Origin: Erysipelotrichaceae bacterium
GTDB lineage: Bacteria > Bacillota_I > Bacilli_A > RFN20 > CAG-449
Direction: 5' to 3'
Assembly: GCA_022772105.1 (NCBI GenBank)
Contig: JALFBO010000004.1
Coordinates: 1 to 32,208, forward strand
Length of the DNA: 32,208 nt
Shown: one piece after another, positions 18,951 through 30,224 of the stretch
Numbering within the stretch: position 1 is the first letter of the stretch
How the letters are laid out: each line of letters opens with the position of its first letter
Notes under the pieces: generated by a model
What the model was told of the DNA's origin: nothing
The model's input: the letters and a program-made list of their open reading frames with translations, nothing else
The model's database searches: none
Translations under genes and position numbers: made by a program

Positions 18951-19832
18951 ATGAAAGAAATTCATTTATCTGATAGACTTGGTCATGTTACATCGAAAAA
19001 GATTGGCTTTTCATGGTTACATTTCTTTTTTGGTCCTTTTTATTGCTTTGCAAGATTACATTTTATTCTAGGTATTATTGAACTACTTGTTATATATTAC
19101 TTTTTACCAATTCCAGGACTTGAATCCTTATCTGATGGTATTACTTCTTTAGTGGGATCAATGGTTAATGACTTAAGCCCATCATTTCAACAAAACTTAA
19201 ATCGTGTTCTTCTTGTTTTTAGAAGAGGTAATTATGCATTTGTTTCTGGATTTTTCCTCTTCTTTATTCATTTATTCCTTTCAAATTATGTGATGGGATT
19301 TTTCTTAAGAAGAGATTTAAGAAAAAAGCAATTAAGACCTGTTCAAGAACAAGATGCTCGTCTATTAATCAAATATATGGTTTGCGATGAAAAAATCTCT
19401 CTTGCTGAATCTTTTGATTTAAGACAATCTTCTTCTTTCAAATCAGCAGAAGAAAGTTGGTATGAAAATAACGCTAAAAGGATTAAGGGTGATAGAGCTA
19501 CTCGCTTTATGACACGATCTACAATTCTTTTCGCGGGAGATAAAGAAAATTTTGGTAAGAAAAAAGTGCCAGGAACACAAACTATTGAAATTGAATCCTG
19601 GAACGATAATTCATTTGGTGCATATAAAGAAAGCTTAAATAAAGAAACCAAACAAGATGACGAATTTTCTAACTTTACCGATTATAGTCAATTTATTCCA
19701 CAAGAACAAAAAGAAATCAAAGAGGAAGAACTTGTTCTTACAGAACCTGTAACAATGGAAATTAAATCAAGCGATTTAAACGAAGGATTCTTTTCCTCAA
19801 AAAAAGAAGATAAGGACGATTTTTCATTCTAG
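18951..19832 (+). CDS. DUF2628-like membrane protein with long cytoplasmic tail
   Basis: A 293-residue protein of unknown function. The first 40 residues, KKIGFSWLHFFFGPFYCFAR, carry the Phe/Trp-rich G-F-S-W-x-x-F-F-F-G-P motif seen in DUF2628-type membrane proteins. Three membrane segments follow, at about 22-42, 45-65 and 95-122. The remaining 160 residues are polar, mostly disordered, with several Ser/Asp/Lys-rich stretches and no motif I know. An AAGGGAAGGTG site precedes the ATG. It separates rpsO from pnp, which are normally adjacent, and has its own promoter and terminator, so it is a separate insertion in that order and not an operon partner. Confidence 0.65.
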   Translation: MKEIHLSDRLGHVTSKKIGFSWLHFFFGPFYCFARLHFILGIIELLVIYYFLPIPGLESLSDGITSLVGSMVNDLSPSFQQNLNRVLLVFRRGNYAFVSGFFLFFIHLFLSNYVMGFFLRRDLRKKQLRPVQEQDARLLIKYMVCDEKISLAESFDLRQSSSFKSAEESWYENNAKRIKGDRATRFMTRSTILFAGDKENFGKKKVPGTQTIEIESWNDNSFGAYKESLNKETKQDDEFSNFTDYSQFIPQEQKEIKEEELVLTEPVTMEIKSSDLNEGFFSSKKEDKDDFSF

Positions 19833-22215: not shown

Positions 22216-22249
22216 AAATCTAGAATCAATCTTCGATTCTAGATTTTTT
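22216..22249. terminator. Bidirectional terminator between pnp and the VanZ/Ig gene
   Basis: A 12-bp perfect stem (22216-22227 with 22235-22246), 7-base loop, T run after it and A run before it. It covers the last codons of the minus-strand gene. Confidence 0.85.
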
Positions 22250-23860
22250 ATTTTGTTGGTTTTTAATATTATTTTTATGCTTTTTTGATAATATTTTAAT
22301 TAAGAATATAGTAAATACAATAATTATTCCAAGATTAAATCCTAGCATATCAATTCCAATATCGCTTAATGCACAAGTTCTTTCTGGTGTAAAATATTGA
22401 ATGATCTCACTTAGGCAAGCTAGATATAATCCGCTACACTCGGATAGGATTAAAGAGATATGAGTTTCCTTTTCATTTAAAGTTGAAATCAAGAATAAGG
22501 AAAGGAATAGGGCGTTAAGTGTAAACAACAGAAAGTGTCCGAAAGCTTTTCTAATTATTAAAGTAAAGGATTTGATTTCTTTGGCAAAATCTTTGTTGAT
22601 TACACTTATATATAATCTAAGAGAAAATGATTCATCTTCATCAGAACTAATTATATCAATATAACAAGATCCTTTTTGGAGAACAGAAATAGTGTTATTA
22701 TCATAAACTTTGATAATAGATGGATTTGAAGATGTTATACGCACATCCTTTAAAGTAGTGGATGAAAAATAGTCTAAATCAATATTGTAAGAACATTTGT
22801 TTTCAAGAAGAAATGTATCATCTTGTTGTTTAGCTTTAATACTAGCGTTAAAACCCAAATGATTTTTTACTTTTAAAGTGACGATAGACTCTAGAGAATC
22901 ATCATATAAAGAAATTGCTTTAATAGTAATTAAAGGAGCGCTTTTCTTTAAGATAGTAACTTTTCCTTCATTACTTATCTTACAAGAAGGATAATCAGTT
23001 TCGTATTTTACAAATTTAAAACTTGTATTGGATGGGTAATAAGATACATTTAAATCATATGTTTGGCCTACATAAATATCTTCATTAAGATTTATTTTTA
23101 ATGAGTCGATATCAATAAGAGAATCATCGGTTTTTTGCTCAACTTTTATATAATTAAAAACTTCCTTATTTGCATTAGAAAATGCGTATAGTTGATATGG
23201 TTCTGAAGAGTAATTTTTAATATGTAATATGTTGTTATCTATAAGTTCTAAAGATCCATTGTCATATACAAAAGTTGAATCATCTTTAATATAGTAAGAT
23301 ACTGTTTTATTCGTGGTGTTTTCAGGAAGGATAGTTGCATCTAAATAAATATATTCTCCTTCTTTTATTGTTAAGGTATTGTTAATAATAGATGAAGAAG
23401 AAATAGATAAAGAAGTTGGTAAAACATCTTCTACTTCTAAAAGGAACTCTTTTTCTAATAATATATTTTTTTCAGGAATAGAAAGCGAACTTTTTAATGT
23501 GACTTGTCCTTGTTTTAAACAGTTTACAAATCCTTTTTCGTCGATTGTTGCAATAGATGAATCAGAACTTTCAAAAGTCACATTTTTAAAAGTAGAATTT
23601 TCAGGAAGCACCTTATATTCTAAAAGGAATGAAGATGAAGTGAAAGATTTATTCACTTCTTTTACTTCTAAAGAAGTAGGGTAAACATTACGCGAGTAAA
23701 TGTTCTTGGTAGCATTGTATACGCTACTTATGATATTGCTTACAAAATTTGATTGTGAGGAAGAAGAACTTCCTGGAAGAGCAGCTTCGCTTAGTATAAT
23801 TATTGAAGTTAATAGAAAAAGAAGGAAATTAGTTCTTTGGAATATTTTCTTTTTATCCAT
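22226..23860 (-). CDS. VanZ-family membrane protein with Ig-like domains inserted in its first loop
   Basis: The N-terminus has one membrane helix (about 11-29) ending in EAALPGSSSSSQSNFVS, the S-S-x-Q-S sequence that follows helix 1 in VanZ proteins. Residues about 60-425 form four beta-rich repeats of the bacterial Ig-like (BIG2) type, for example VLPENSTFKNVTFESSDSSI followed by ATIDEKGFVNCLKQG. The C-terminus (about 440-530) returns to VanZ: RKAFGHFLLFTL, then SEIIQYFTPERTCALSDIGI and a final helix. VanZ itself was named from low-level teicoplanin resistance, with unknown chemistry. The Ig part should be outside the cell. It is 25 bases downstream of the CNNM gene, in one operon. Cell-surface or cell-wall contact is inferred. 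Confidence 0.75.
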   Translation of the reverse strand: MDKKKIFQRTNFLLFLLTSIIILSEAALPGSSSSSQSNFVSNIISSVYNATKNIYSRNVYPTSLEVKEVNKSFTSSSFLLEYKVLPENSTFKNVTFESSDSSIATIDEKGFVNCLKQGQVTLKSSLSIPEKNILLEKEFLLEVEDVLPTSLSISSSSIINNTLTIKEGEYIYLDATILPENTTNKTVSYYIKDDSTFVYDNGSLELIDNNILHIKNYSSEPYQLYAFSNANKEVFNYIKVEQKTDDSLIDIDSLKINLNEDIYVGQTYDLNVSYYPSNTSFKFVKYETDYPSCKISNEGKVTILKKSAPLITIKAISLYDDSLESIVTLKVKNHLGFNASIKAKQQDDTFLLENKCSYNIDLDYFSSTTLKDVRITSSNPSIIKVYDNNTISVLQKGSCYIDIISSDEDESFSLRLYISVINKDFAKEIKSFTLIIRKAFGHFLLFTLNALFLSLFLISTLNEKETHISLILSECSGLYLACLSEIIQYFTPERTCALSDIGIDMLGFNLGIIIVFTIFLIKILSKKHKNNIKNQQNKKSRIED

Positions 23861-23885: not shown

Positions 23886-24950
23886 TTAGATAGATTGATC
23901 GTTATTTTTATCAACATTATCTTCAACTACTTTAATCTCATCTAATCTATCTTCTATTATATCCCTTTCTTCATCATACTCATCATCGATTTCACCAACT
24001 AATTCTTCAAGAATGTCCTCCATAGTGATTAGACCAACAATTTTACCAGTTTTTGACTTAACAAAAGCCATGTGTTGCTTTTCTTTTTGGAAAGTTTTGA
24101 GTTGACGAGAAATCTTGATGCTATTTTTTGTCCATAAAGGATTAACGATGATAGAATTTAGATCTTTTTCGTTGTTTAGTAACATTTCATAGAATTCTTT
24201 TTGATAAATGATTCCATATATTGAACTATATTTATTGTTCTTAGCAATAGGAATACGTGAATAATTATATGTTTCGAATACTTCTTGAATCGTTTCTAGA
24301 GAATCGCTATTTTTTACAAACACAATATCTCTACCTTTAGTCATAATATCTCCTACGAGCAAATCTCCATATTCGATAGTATTAAGAATTAAATTTTTTT
24401 CTATTCCATTAAGTATTCCTTCATCGTGGATTTCATCTACTAAGATTTCAAATTCTTCTTCAGTCATAGTAGGTTGGCTCTTAATACCAAATAACTTTCT
24501 AATGCCCTTGCTAAGTAAATCGAATAACCAAGCAAAAGGGAATAAAATATAATAACAAATTAAAAGTGGGTAAGCAAAAATCAACGCCATATTTTCAGCG
24601 AGTGACTTAGATATTGATTTTGGAAATATTTCACCAAAGATTAAAACAGCAAGTGTAACAATAACAGTTCCAAGTGTTGCTCCAATATTTGTATAGTAGT
24701 TTACAAATACAATTGTGGCAATCGTTGTGCCAACGATGTTAACGATATTATTACCAATCAAGATAGTGGTAATTAATCTATCGTAATTATCTCTTAATTT
24801 TAATGCAATGCGAGCACTACGCTTATTTTTTGCTAAATTTTTCATTCTAATAACAGACATTGATGTAAATGCTGTTTCAGATGCAGAAAAGAAAGCAGAT
24901 AGAAATAATAAAATGAATAAACAAATAATATAAATATAGGGGTCCGGCAT
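23886..24950 (-). CDS. CNNM/CBS-domain membrane protein (HlyC/CorC family), short form
   Basis: An N-terminal DUF21/CNNM transmembrane domain (about 1-175) includes SAFFSASETAFTSMS, TTILIGNNIVN and IFGEIFPKSISKSLAEN, all standard for the family. Two CBS domains (about 195-320) follow, recognisable by VGDIMTKGRDIVFV and GKIVGLITMEDILEELVGEI. The usual C-terminal CorC_HlyC domain is missing: after the second CBS only an acidic tail remains, giving 354 residues instead of about 430. The family has been linked to Mg2+ or other cation efflux in some bacteria. AAGGAG precedes the ATG, and a TTGAAT-17-TATTAT promoter drives this gene and the VanZ/Ig gene. Confidence 0.9.
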   Translation of the reverse strand: MPDPYIYIICLFILLFLSAFFSASETAFTSMSVIRMKNLAKNKRSARIALKLRDNYDRLITTILIGNNIVNIVGTTIATIVFVNYYTNIGATLGTVIVTLAVLIFGEIFPKSISKSLAENMALIFAYPLLICYYILFPFAWLFDLLSKGIRKLFGIKSQPTMTEEEFEILVDEIHDEGILNGIEKNLILNTIEYGDLLVGDIMTKGRDIVFVKNSDSLETIQEVFETYNYSRIPIAKNNKYSSIYGIIYQKEFYEMLLNNEKDLNSIIVNPLWTKNSIKISRQLKTFQKEKQHMAFVKSKTGKIVGLITMEDILEELVGEIDDEYDEERDIIEDRLDEIKVVEDNVDKNNDQSI

Positions 24951-25180: not shown

Positions 25181-27886
25181 ATGAAAAAAAATAATAAAAT
25201 TTTTGCGTGTTTGAGCGTAGCCGCTATGCTTGCCACAGTTACTTTTGTTTCATGCTCGCAAAATAAAACACCTGCAAATAAAGAACAAAATAACAATCAT
25301 ATTAATGAAAATGTTCAAGATGCAGTTTCTCAAAAAATGTTACGAATTCATTATCATAGGGATGATGGTGCGTATTCTGAATGGGATATTTGGTTATGGC
25401 CAGAAGGTGGTGCTGGAGATGCAGTTAAATTCACTAAAACCGATGACTACGGAGTTTACGCGGAAGTAGATCTTGAAAGTGGAGCTTATGCTGGTGCTAC
25501 TAAATTTGGTATTATCATTAGAAAGCCAGACTGGTCTGCAAAAGATGCTTCCGGAGCAGATCGTTTCTTCGAAATTCCTGCAGATGTAGGAGATCAAGGA
25601 TATGATATATATTTATATGGTGGTAAAGAAGATATTTATACAAGTCCAGATGAAGCACAATCTTCTGCATTAAATAATGCATATTTCCAAGATATAACTA
25701 CTGTAAAAGCTGATATCTTCTTAGGAAAAACAGAACATACATTAGTTGTTTCCGATATATCTTTATATGATGGGGATACAAAAATTGATATTTCCAATGT
25801 AGTAATAACTTCTGATTCTATTACATTTAAAGTACCTGAAGGAGCTATTTCTTACTCTGGTCAATACACATTAAAAGTCAAATTTGATGCTGGAGTTGCA
25901 TCTTGTAATGTTTCTTTAACTTCTTTATATGATGATAAGGAATTCTATGATGCTTACACATATTATGGTGATGACCTTGGTGTAACATTCAACAAAACAA
26001 GAACTGCTACTACATTTAAGATTTGGGCGCCAATTTCTAAATCTGTTATTTTAAATATTTATGAAAGTGGCACACCAAAATCATTATCAAATGCATTTGG
26101 AAGCGATGCGATTTATAAACGCATTGAATTAAAGAAAGAACAACAAGGTGTATGGGGTGCAACAATCAATGAAAACTTACACGGTAAGTATTACACATAC
26201 ACTGTTGATAATGGATACGCTGTTAATGAAGTAGTAGATCCATATGCAAAGAGCTGTGGTGTTAATGGCTTAAGAGGATGCATTGTTGATTTCAAAGCAA
26301 TCGATGAAGAAATTCATTGGAACGAAGTATCTCGCCCAAATAATATCACTAAACCAACTGATCAAATTATTTATGAAATGCATATTAATGATATGACTAA
26401 TAGTGAAACTGCTGGTACTAAAGATATGGAATTTGATGGAAAATCATATACAGCAAAGAAACTACGTGGTAAATATCTTGCTATGTCGCAAACAGGTACT
26501 ACTTATACTGATGGCACAACAACGGTTACAACCGGTTTAGATCACTTAAAAGAATTAGGTGTAAACACTGTTCAAATCCAACCAATTTATGATTTCTCTT
26601 CCGTAGAAGAATTTGGTTCTAGCAAAGGATATAACTGGGGCTATGATCCACTTAACTATAACTGTCTAGAAGGTTCATATTCAGTTAATCCAGAAGATGG
26701 TTTATCTAGAATTAAAGAATTTAAAGCAACAATGAAAGCATTCTGTGAAGCAGGAATCAATGTTAATATGGACGTTGTTTATAACCATACTGCATCAACA
26801 GAAAATACAAACTTTGAAAAGATTATTCCAGGTTACTATCATAGAATGACAGAAGCTGGTAAATATTCAAATGGTTCCGGATGTGGAAATGAAATGGCTT
26901 CTGAAAAACCAATGTATCGTAAATTCGTTGTTGATTCATGTAAGTTCTGGTGTGAAACATACAACATTTCTGGTTTCAGATTTGACTTAATGAAATTACT
27001 AGATACAGTTACATTACAACAAGTATATGAAGAATGCGCTAAAGTGTATCCACAAGTAACCGTTTATGGTGAACCTTGGACTGGTGGAACATCAACTGAC
27101 ACATATGTTGGTGTTGATCAAACTACAGTAATCGGTACTAAGGGTGTCGGTGCATTTAACGATCAAATTAGAAACTCAATTAGAGGTGGAAATGATCAAG
27201 GCGCTACTGGTTGGATTCATAATGGAACAACTGGTGTACAAAAGATTGTTGATGGTATTAAAGGTACATTCTACGGTGGATATATTAACGCTGAAAAAGT
27301 TGTTAACTATGTAGCATGTCATGATAACTATTGTATTAACGACCAAATTGAATATTCAAGTGATGGTTCAAATAAGAACAATAAGATCACTCAATCAGAT
27401 GCAATGATCACATTAGCGGAAGGTATTCCTTTCATCTACGAAGGTGATGAATTCTGTAGAACAAAGAATATCTACCATACTACTATTAAAGATGGTAAAG
27501 ATGAAGCAGGTCAAATTATTCATAATACATATAATGCACCACTTTATAACACAATTAACTGGGCAGATAAGATTACTAACTTAAAAGTTAATAATATTCA
27601 TAAAGATCTATTCAAGATTAGAAATGATTATGAAGGATTTAGATACGCTAAAAACAGTGAAATAGCTGAAAATGTTACTATTTTATCACAAGGTAAAGTT
27701 ATCGCTTATAAAGTTAAATCTGGCGATAAAGAATTAGTAGTCGTTCACTCACAAGCTGGTGGAGCTTATAATTTACCTGGCTCATATAAATTATTATTCA
27801 ATAATGTTGATGGCTTAGTTAATTCATCTACTAGTATTACTGATTACATGCTTCCTGTAAATGGAACTGCGGTATTTGTTAAATAA
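25181..27886 (+). CDS. pulA: Type I pullulanase, secreted lipoprotein
   Basis: Hydrolyses alpha-1,6 branches of pullulan, starch or glycogen at the cell surface. A signal peptide ends in lipobox FVSC with Cys25. A CBM41-like starch-binding domain follows (about 50-135: IHYHRDDGAYSEWDIWLWPE), then a linker domain, an isoamylase N-type CBM48 (about 265-360: GVTFNKTRTATTFKIWAP) and the GH13 catalytic barrel. Signature YNWGYDP is present. Catalytic residues are Asp602 in GFRFDLMK, Glu631 in VYGEPWTGG and Asp715 in CHDN; region I reads NMDVVYNHT. 901 residues. AAGGGG precedes ATG. It starts a two-gene operon with the lipoprotein 14 bases downstream. Confidence 0.95.
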   Translation: MKKNNKIFACLSVAAMLATVTFVSCSQNKTPANKEQNNNHINENVQDAVSQKMLRIHYHRDDGAYSEWDIWLWPEGGAGDAVKFTKTDDYGVYAEVDLESGAYAGATKFGIIIRKPDWSAKDASGADRFFEIPADVGDQGYDIYLYGGKEDIYTSPDEAQSSALNNAYFQDITTVKADIFLGKTEHTLVVSDISLYDGDTKIDISNVVITSDSITFKVPEGAISYSGQYTLKVKFDAGVASCNVSLTSLYDDKEFYDAYTYYGDDLGVTFNKTRTATTFKIWAPISKSVILNIYESGTPKSLSNAFGSDAIYKRIELKKEQQGVWGATINENLHGKYYTYTVDNGYAVNEVVDPYAKSCGVNGLRGCIVDFKAIDEEIHWNEVSRPNNITKPTDQIIYEMHINDMTNSETAGTKDMEFDGKSYTAKKLRGKYLAMSQTGTTYTDGTTTVTTGLDHLKELGVNTVQIQPIYDFSSVEEFGSSKGYNWGYDPLNYNCLEGSYSVNPEDGLSRIKEFKATMKAFCEAGINVNMDVVYNHTASTENTNFEKIIPGYYHRMTEAGKYSNGSGCGNEMASEKPMYRKFVVDSCKFWCETYNISGFRFDLMKLLDTVTLQQVYEECAKVYPQVTVYGEPWTGGTSTDTYVGVDQTTVIGTKGVGAFNDQIRNSIRGGNDQGATGWIHNGTTGVQKIVDGIKGTFYGGYINAEKVVNYVACHDNYCINDQIEYSSDGSNKNNKITQSDAMITLAEGIPFIYEGDEFCRTKNIYHTTIKDGKDEAGQIIHNTYNAPLYNTINWADKITNLKVNNIHKDLFKIRNDYEGFRYAKNSEIAENVTILSQGKVIAYKVKSGDKELVVVHSQAGGAYNLPGSYKLLFNNVDGLVNSSTSITDYMLPVNGTAVFVK

Positions 27887-27900
27887 GGGAGGAAAAGAAA

Positions 27901-28977
27901 ATGAAAAAGACTATAACATTATTACTTGCTTCCTTAGTAGCAACAACAGGCATTTTAGCAGGCTGTGGAAAGAAAAAAACCGATCCATCCACTTCAAGTT
28001 CAAATTCAACTACAAGTTTAACTTCAACTTCAACTAATGAAGTAACAAGTACAGTCACATCGCAAACAATAACATCAAATCCATCAACTACGATTCCACC
28101 TGAATCATTCGTAGAAGTTGGAGAATATACCATTACTTGGATTAATGGTATTGGATCATCTTATCAATTAGTAGATGGTGGGGTATTACCAGGAAAAGCA
28201 AATGGAAACGATAAAATTGAATTTAAATTAGCATTAGCTTATGGATTTGAAGTTGCTCCTAATGTAACAGCAAACGATGTAACATTAACTCCTGTAGATG
28301 GTGTTTACTCATTTGTTGTCACTGGAAATACAACAATCAAAGCAGCAGACTTAGATGTTAATTATGATGAAGTTATTGAATATTCTTCATATTATCTTCA
28401 ATTAGGTAGCCAAGAATTTGTAAATAAAGAAGAAAATAGATTTATTGTTGATAAATATCCAGTATATTCTAATGAACAATACTATTTTGAAGATATTGAT
28501 TTCAATATTGGTGATACATTCAAGGTTTATGATAGCGTAACATCAGCTGTATTAACAAACTATGAAAAAGTTGATGGAGTATTACCAACTGGCTCAGTAG
28601 CGGCTGATGGAACATTTACTTGTACTGAAAAAGGTACATATGCTATGTACATAAAAGTAACTGGTGGAGAAACTCTAGTATATGTAGAATGCTACAATGA
28701 ACGTGAAATTAAAATTACTGGAGTTGAAGCAGGCTATACATATTATGTTTGGTCATGGGGTGGCGAAAAAGCTAACACATGGTTACCAGGTGTATTAGAT
28801 GGAACAACATTTACATTTACTCTTCCAAAACGTGCTTCTGGCTTCTTAATTGCTCAATTTAATGATGGCTTAGCAATTGAAGATGCTTCTTGGGATGTTA
28901 AGATTAAACAATCAGAAGATATGGCTCCTGTTAAAGGTGTAAGCTCTTATCCAGTTGTTTGGAAAGTTGGAGCTTAA
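27901..28977 (+). CDS. Lipoprotein, probable alpha-glucan-binding partner of the pullulanase
   Basis: The signal peptide ends in lipobox LAGC (Cys22). A Ser/Thr-rich linker fills about residues 28-68, as in surface tethers. Beyond it are beta-strand-rich domains: about 72-150 (an aspartate- and valine-rich repeat), about 155-255, and a C-terminal one (about 262-358) with YYVWSWGGEKANTWLPG and SGFLIAQFNDG. Tryptophan clusters with a Y-x-W start recall CBM26/SusE-like starch-binding domains, but I cannot assign a family. GGGAGG precedes ATG, 14 bases from the pullulanase stop, so it shares the cre control. The role in starch capture is inferred from context. Confidence 0.7.
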   Translation: MKKTITLLLASLVATTGILAGCGKKKTDPSTSSSNSTTSLTSTSTNEVTSTVTSQTITSNPSTTIPPESFVEVGEYTITWINGIGSSYQLVDGGVLPGKANGNDKIEFKLALAYGFEVAPNVTANDVTLTPVDGVYSFVVTGNTTIKAADLDVNYDEVIEYSSYYLQLGSQEFVNKEENRFIVDKYPVYSNEQYYFEDIDFNIGDTFKVYDSVTSAVLTNYEKVDGVLPTGSVAADGTFTCTEKGTYAMYIKVTGGETLVYVECYNEREIKITGVEAGYTYYVWSWGGEKANTWLPGVLDGTTFTFTLPKRASGFLIAQFNDGLAIEDASWDVKIKQSEDMAPVKGVSSYPVVWKVGA

Positions 28978-29291: not shown

Positions 29292-30224
29292 ATGGGAAAT
29301 AAATTCTTAAGATTATTTTTAATAGTGATTTCATCTTTTGCTGCTTCTGTTGGACTGGCGTCATGTGGTAATACATATACTCCTAGTTATGATAATTTAT
29401 CTTTTACAGTCATTAGTGAAGAAGAAAAAATTTGTGAAGTAAACGGATATAAGAAGTATTATAACGATGAAAGAGATAATAATATTTACATTCCTAAAAT
29501 GTGGAATGACTACAAAGTAACATCAATTGGCGAATCTGCTTTCTTTGGTTGCGAATCTTTAAGTTCAATCATGATACCAAATAGTGTAACCTCAATTGGC
29601 GGCTCTGCTTTCAGGAAATGTACCTCTTTAAGTTCAATCTCAATTCCAAAAAGTGTAACCTCAATTGGATTCGGTGCTTTCCTTGATTGTACCTCCTTAA
29701 GTTCAATCGTGATACCAAATAGTGTAACCTCTCTTGGCGGTTATGTTTTCCATGACTGTGCCTCCTTAAGTTCAGTAAAAATAGGAAATGGTGTAACCTC
29801 AATTGGAGACGATACTTTTTATGGATGCAGCTCTTTAAGTTCAATCGTGATACCAGGTAGTGTAACCTCAATTGGCGAAAGTGCTTTCAATCTTTGTACC
29901 TCCTTAAGTTCAATCGTGATACCAGATAGTGTAATCTCAATAGACCGCGCTGCTTTCCAAAGATGTTCCTCTTTAAGTTCAGTAACAATAGGAAATGGTG
30001 TAACCTCTCTTGGCGAGCTTGCTTTCTCTTTTTGTCCATCCTTAAGTTCAATCGTGATACCAGATAGTGTAACCTCAATAGGCAGCTCTGTTTTCTATAG
30101 TAGTAAGTCCTTAAGTGATGTATACTATATTGGTTCAGAAGAACAATGGAATGCTATTAGTATTGATTCGACTAATGATGAATTAAATTCTGCTACTATC
30201 CACTATAACTATGTAGGTAAGTAA
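29292..30224 (+). CDS. BspA-type leucine-rich-repeat lipoprotein, 9 repeats
   Basis: A signal peptide ends in lipobox LASC (Cys25), so the protein should be lipid-anchored outside. After a 45-residue N-terminal segment, nine 23-residue LRR_5 (Treponema pallidum/BspA type) repeats run from about residue 78 to 280, pattern V-T-S-I-G-x-x-A-F-x-x-C-x-S-L-S-S-I-x-I-P-x-S. A closing segment VYYIGSEEQWNAI caps them. BspA-like proteins in gut and oral bacteria bind host matrix or other microbes; binding here is inferred. GAAAGGAATATAAG precedes the ATG. At DNA level the 69-base repeats are nearly identical at silent sites but differ at a few codons. Confidence 0.88.
   Translation: MGNKFLRLFLIVISSFAASVGLASCGNTYTPSYDNLSFTVISEEEKICEVNGYKKYYNDERDNNIYIPKMWNDYKVTSIGESAFFGCESLSSIMIPNSVTSIGGSAFRKCTSLSSISIPKSVTSIGFGAFLDCTSLSSIVIPNSVTSLGGYVFHDCASLSSVKIGNGVTSIGDDTFYGCSSLSSIVIPGSVTSIGESAFNLCTSLSSIVIPDSVISIDRAAFQRCSSLSSVTIGNGVTSLGELAFSFCPSLSSIVIPDSVTSIGSSVFYSSKSLSDVYYIGSEEQWNAISIDSTNDELNSATIHYNYVGK

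Follow-up and report, generated by a model that had tools for sequence, protein, structure and literature searches.

VanZ proteins are widespread and have been tied to teicoplanin resistance, and the reaction that they carry out is unknown. We know of no biochemistry for any VanZ-2 protein. According to the main text of Burroughs et al. 2025 (PMC12419801), VanZ belongs to the Lipocone superfamily, with an active site at the outer leaflet that is formed by residues of helices H2, H3, and H4; Lipocone proteins are predicted to act on phosphate-linked lipid head groups, and lipid II was proposed for VanZ-2. The fusions described in that text follow the scheme 'SP + X + TM + Lipocone or Lipocone + TM + X', in which X includes extracellular Ig domains.

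The protein described here is encoded in a window of 32,208 nucleotides (the whole stretch of DNA that was analyzed), taken from a contig of a metagenome-assembled genome (MAG) with 196 contigs. It shares with VanZ-2, as presented in that main text, the R-K...H of H2, the ExxQ of H3, the DxxxD of H4, the four core helices, and a helical handle that forms part of the H1-H2 linker, but its core is discontinuous, with Ig domains between the handle and H2. The H2 motif reads RKxxGH, i.e., one residue longer than the RKxxH published there, in compact (uninterrupted) and split members alike. Like the SP + X + TM + Lipocone fusions of the same text, the window protein has extracellular Ig domains and VanZ in one chain; here, however, X lies inside the Lipocone domain, what would be the 'SP' is H1, and X is not followed by a complete core. 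The VanZ of Tn1546/VanA and pneumococcal VanZ (PMC7146870), linked to teicoplanin resistance, match PF04892 as the window protein does, but are uninterrupted. Compact VanZ proteins of the same order (~170 aa, e.g., L099:4020-4541) are its neighbors in the tree and have the same five helices and invariant residues, with a 9-residue loop where the window protein has ~366 residues. The Big_2 Ig domains of S-layer proteins, LigA, intimin, and a Big_2-CBM56 protein have the Ig fold found here (Z 9-14, single domains or pairs), but they belong to end-anchored or free chains, whereas the chain here has both ends fixed in a loop of a membrane protein.

An earlier note on this DNA knew of no description of the architecture, which is partly true: the discontinuous VanZ core appears to be new, whereas VanZ-Ig fusions have already been reported in PMC12419801, in the main text of which they have another arrangement (SP, Ig, TM, and a complete VanZ). 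A discontinuous core with X between the handle and H2 does not appear in that main text and may be listed in its supplementary tables; a literature search found no other paper describing a VanZ split between the handle and H2.

A VanZ core in two pieces

The features of the locus are as follows.

22226..23860, minus strand: split VanZ gene as a whole, 544 aa; VanZ helix 1 and handle, four Ig-like domains, VanZ helices 2-4
23783..23854, minus strand: helix 1 of the VanZ core, residues 3-26, N-terminus inside (AF2, compact-only H1 HMM, full compact HMM)
23708..23773, minus strand: S-S-S-Q-S motif and 'handle' helix, residues 30-51 (AF2); counterpart of helix 34-55 of the compact relative
22592..23689, minus strand: insert with four Ig-like Big_2 domains, ~residues 58-423, ~366 residues (Pfam, AF2 strands within 63-421, PDB matches)
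22481..22585, minus strand: helix 2, residues 426-460, with R437-K438-x-x-G441-H442 (AF2, invariant residues, VanZ HMM)
22394..22474, minus strand: helix 3, residues 463-489, with E485-x-x-Q488 (AF2, invariant residues)
22235..22369, minus strand: helix 4 and basic cytoplasmic tail, residues 498-542, with D500-x-x-x-D504 and with R494 just ahead (AF2, invariant residues)
22216..22246, seen on both strands: terminator-like hairpin where the pnp and VanZ genes converge; it overlaps the stop of VanZ
23886..24950, minus strand: CNNM/CBS (CorC-like) gene, on the same strand as VanZ and 25 bp upstream of it

The VanZ gene starts with ATG, closely preceded by AGGAGG, and is the sole VanZ match found in the window genome. 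In profile searches, its 544-aa product scored 32.6 bits with Pfam VanZ (PF04892; cut-off 30.1), 38.3 bits with NCBIfam vanZ_1 (cut-off 20), and 57.4 bits, in four stretches, with Pfam Big_2 (PF02368); the Pfam search gave nothing beyond Big_2 and VanZ, and no adhesive tip domain or sorting signal was seen. The Pfam VanZ match covers profile positions 39-124 only, at residues 426-517, and thus the C-terminal part without helix 1.

The conserved residues of the core are intact: S33, S37, R437, K438, G441, H442, E485, Q488, R494, D500, and G507 do not vary among 24 long relatives, and the invariance, that of S33 and S37 included, also holds in a second set of 20 split proteins. Within the DxxxD of helix 4 (D500-IGI-D504), D500 is invariant, and D504 is invariant in an alignment of 20 split proteins (A4). 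Compact VanZ proteins of the same order run from helix 1 through G-x-x-S-S-x-Q-S, RKxxGH, ExxQ, and R to DxxxD, and the serines matching S33 and S37 are invariant in 20 compact VanZ proteins, more distant ones included. A longer C-terminal extension after helix 4, with a common pattern (LLSYKTIF/SFKTAF-like), was seen in L106, L071, L072, and L073.

Small residues near the end of the N-terminal helix look signal-like, and SP + X + TM + Lipocone is the arrangement given for VanZ fusions in the main text of PMC12419801; the helix might accordingly be a cleaved signal peptide, followed by either a truncated three-helix VanZ anchor or a complete VanZ after a separate TM. An HMM of the H1 region, built only from 32 compact VanZ proteins, matched the N-terminus of the window protein with 32.1 bits (E 1.4e-9), and among 240 other N-terminal TM helices of the same loci, no true control scored above 12.6 bits; a chance resemblance of the N-terminus to H1 was rejected on these scores. 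One 34.1-bit 'control' (L091_p_4102) turned out to come from a split VanZ that is broken by masked bases, of which it is the N-terminal half. A full-length HMM of 165 positions, made only from uninterrupted relatives of ~170 residues, matched the window protein in two segments that follow on from one another in the model: ORF residues 6-59 align with model 5-57 (E 1.1e-7), and residues 424-535 with model 50-162 (E 1.2e-29). This pattern recurred in 39 of 41 long proteins when read from the table, or in 36 by a stricter script count. With an N-terminus that specifically matches H1 and the handle of compact VanZ, with S33 and S37 as invariant as the catalytic residues, and with only three helices after the insert, where the VanZ profile begins at position 39, a signal peptide is very improbable. 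That the N-terminal helix is instead VanZ helix 1 is strongly supported; for the reading of VanZ-Ig fusions this is a correction, as the supposed 'signal peptide' belongs to the core.

AlphaFold2 (AF2) placed the helices of the window protein at residues 3-26, 30-51, 426-460, 463-489, and 498-542 (mean pLDDT 76, pTM 0.44) and those of a compact relative at 6-31, 34-55, 65-96, 107-129, and 137-173 (pLDDT 90.8, pTM 0.80). All five helices are thus present in the window protein by AF2 and HMM, in the discontinuous order H1-handle-[Ig]-H2-H3-H4, and since they match those of the compact protein one by one, the insert takes the place of the short loop between the handle and helix 2. In sequence and model, both termini lie inside the cell and the insert lies outside. 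Among 41 proteins, the window protein and nearly all relatives have one hydrophobic helix before the insert, none within, and at most three after it. Exceptions are L097, with extra N-terminal helices, and L060, L070, and the truncated L091, with none above the threshold before the insert; L048, L067, L087, and L093 have a weak hydrophobic segment within it. In L097 (3373-6459), two extra TM helices precede a degenerate helix 1, which accounts for its lack of an H1 match.

The central claim of the earlier note, i.e., a VanZ domain split by Ig repeats with helix 1 at the N-terminus, is borne out by the two HMM pieces, the controls, and the AF2 helices. Its placement of the insert in the first external loop is right as to the outside loop between H1 and H2 and can be made more exact: the insert follows the handle and precedes H2. 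The motifs that it quoted are present as S33-S-S-Q36-S37, H442-F443, and E485xxQ488xFxPxR494, except that the spacing from R494 to D500 is R-x5-D and not R-x4-D. The four BIG2-type domains that it saw between the VanZ parts correspond to the four Big_2 stretches in Pfam and to Ig folds in structure comparison. Neither of the two outcomes that would have refuted it was found: the C-terminal part of the window protein has VanZ similarity over the cut-off, and the N-terminal helix matches VanZ helix 1.

The Ig-like insert and the spread of the split form

The limits of the Ig domains are residues 58-146, ~148-245, 248-334, and 335-423, the second domain being poorly modelled (pLDDT ~50). In structure comparisons, residues 56-191 of the model matched the Big_2-CBM56 tandem 7quz (Z 13.7, 117 residues, rmsd 4.8) and residues 248-424 matched LigA 8gyr (Z 11.8); Ig domains of S-layer proteins and intimin were also among the matches of the insert. 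The results of the VIA structure search with the whole window model were filled by Ig matches, and when the compact VanZ model was compared with the PDB, no convincing hit emerged to confirm the Lipocone fold by a solved relative (best Foldseek E 1.7, best VIA Z 7.4). In close pairs of split proteins (core identity 0.55-0.70), mean identities were 0.60 for the core, 0.54 for H1, 0.42 for the first Ig domain, 0.45 for the last, and 0.34 for the middle part. By these sequence comparisons, H1 evolves with the VanZ core, and the middle of the insert changes fastest. With both ends at the membrane, the Ig chain should fold back on itself, and its variable middle would then be outermost.

A VanZ match was found in 168 of the 279 genomes of the order. 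The 150 VanZ matches listed comprise 80 short frames (at most 270 aa), whose match begins at profile position 16 or before, 62 long frames (at least 500 aa), whose match begins at position 32 or later, and 8 frames that combine length and match start differently, including 6 short frames that match late, copies cut by contig ends among them; no VanZ frame between 270 and 500 aa occurs among these 150. The long frames listed fall into two size groups, of 509-665 and 899-1144 aa. In a wider sample of the class, the split form was also found in a few other families (f12, f23, and f27). Where relatives are named, they are MAGs that their submitters labelled as gut Bacilli, Erysipelotrichaceae, or Clostridia. 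A search of genome contigs with the single window protein found no relatives, and a scan of viral contigs yielded none.

The insert is recurrently present or absent among close relatives. In the tree of the core, the split and compact states need eight changes, five of them forced by well-supported branches, in a rough tree from a short alignment that leaves the number of gains and losses uncertain. A single origin of the split form without reversal is disfavored on this sequence tree. At L099:2218-4541, a split VanZ gene (602 aa frame) and a compact one lie tail to tail, with coding ends 2 bases apart. At G610:C27:7376-8185, two VanZ matches occur within one 593-residue frame, likely a tandem duplication of VanZ.

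Peptidoglycan genes, glycan lipids, and possible function

Peptidoglycan loss has been published for some families of RFN20-like orders (PMC10868615), and the order of the window genome is probably among those affected. The genomes of 98 relatives were surveyed with Pfam profiles for the transpeptidase, MraY-type, SEDS, UppS, Bac_transf, and Wzy_C families. Transpeptidase (PF00905) was found in 25, MraY-type (PF00953) in 20, and SEDS (PF01098) in 20, and 73 of the 98 had none of these three; UppS was found in 85, Bac_transf over the cut-off in 63, and Wzy_C in 70. The split form occurred in 29 genomes in all, i.e., in 9 of the 25 transpeptidase-bearing and 20 of the 73 marker-less ones (p 0.45). 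Of the latter 20, 15 are at least 90% complete (G008, G011, G021, G027, G038, G046, G047, G051, G053, G059, G073, G079, G094, G096, and G097). Judged by these marker genes, most of the sampled split-form genomes would have no lipid II to offer. Because these 20 genomes carry a split VanZ and no detectable transpeptidase, MraY, or SEDS, lipid II cannot be the general VanZ substrate, and the range of substrates is narrowed. The window genome, an incomplete MAG, has four transpeptidase matches and UppS, and no match for MraY, SEDS, or Bac_transf; in most of its genus mates, MraY and SEDS are present.

Among peptidoglycan-less genomes at least 90% complete, VanZ of any form went together with Bac_transf (22/25 vs 17/30 without VanZ, p 0.016), Wzy_C (22/25 vs 17/30, p 0.016), and UppS (24/25 vs 22/30, p 0.03), in several tests that ignore phylogeny and sampling and rest partly on one genus; counted by genus, Wzy_C was present in 17 of 17 genera with VanZ vs 3 of 8 without. 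The split form alone showed no significant association with Bac_transf, Wzy_C, or UppS in the same genome set. Sugar-nucleotide and O-antigen-ligase-like genes adjoin several relatives (L059, L060, L065, and L069, in EPS clusters), as annotated by eye from the sequence and partly by Wzy_C matches, and a search around split VanZ relatives for a conserved operon partner found none, the neighboring genes being variable. G059, which is 96% complete and has a split VanZ, has no UppS, Bac_transf, or Wzy_C; a polyprenol substrate does not explain its VanZ, which would have to act on a different lipid. Its genus, g25 (G059 and six others), contains several near-complete genomes without UppS, of which only G059 keeps VanZ (split, 991 aa).

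On balance, we lean towards a four-helix VanZ-2 enzyme of lipid head groups that is split by an Ig chain, with a glycan lipid as substrate and the chain gating or positioning the enzyme. By sequence and model, helix 1 and the handle helix come first, the polypeptide then exits the membrane to form about four Ig-like domains on the outside, and it re-enters for helices 2-4. The VanZ core is predicted to cleave or swap the phosphate-linked head group of an outer-leaflet lipid, a chemistry for which the conserved residues are intact. The lipid in question is probably not lipid II but a polyprenol-linked glycan destined for exopolysaccharide. Since the Ig chain is attached at its two ends to the mouth of the predicted active site, it may serve as a folded-back antenna, and its contact with a surface ligand or glycan would gate or position the enzyme. 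More tentatively, the protein could be a ligand-gated head-group enzyme, in which the Ig domains detect or hold on to a glycan at the surface and so switch the VanZ part, which would act on non-peptidoglycan glycan lipids in wall-less bacteria, although we rather doubt this; if it were true, VanZ-2 would not, in general, be a lipid II enzyme. With the insert next to the predicted active site and present or absent in close relatives, the coupling between an outside domain and VanZ chemistry becomes testable.

Several other readings were weighed against the split enzyme. The VanZ core might be a mere anchor for the display of an Ig adhesin or spacer at the surface, its chemistry being irrelevant, as could be suggested by the likeness of the Ig domains to those of S-layer proteins, LigA, and intimin, by the faster divergence of the Ig region, above all of its middle, and by the stepwise variation in length of the long form. 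We regard this as unlikely, in that not one of the predicted active-site residues varies across 20-24 diverse split proteins, a constancy for which an anchor would have no use, and that a chain tied at both ends and seen with neither a tip domain nor a sorting signal would be an unusual adhesin. A role of the Ig chain in holding VanZ over lipid II by binding to peptidoglycan or wall polymers is similarly improbable. The four transpeptidase matches of the window's own genome, MraY and SEDS in its genus mates, and the lipid II action proposed for VanZ-2 in the main text of PMC12419801 are in line with such a role, but split VanZ is about as common without detectable peptidoglycan synthesis as with it, and the published loss of peptidoglycan in part of such orders points the same way; neither wall ligand nor lipid II substrate can thus be general. 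The wall-binding rod of the earlier note is weakened to that extent as a general reading, with 20 of the 29 sampled split-form genomes lacking detectable PBP transpeptidase, MraY, and SEDS genes, while the window genome itself does have transpeptidases. An assembly or gene-fusion artefact, which the origin of the window from a MAG contig might raise, is hardly conceivable given dozens of split VanZ relatives with the same architecture in independent assemblies of uncultured gut Bacilli, one of them a single-contig genome.

In the window, co-transcription of the VanZ gene with the CNNM/CBS gene upstream is possible, and this pairing is not kept in other genomes. On the plus strand, two ORFs of 358 and 293 aa (27901-28977 and 18951-19832) had no Pfam match at E 0.001, the gene at 25181-27886 is pullulanase-like, with PUD, CBM_48, and alpha-amylase domains, and the gene at 29292-30224 encodes a BspA-type leucine-rich-repeat protein (LRR_5, E 4e-64), a possible surface protein.
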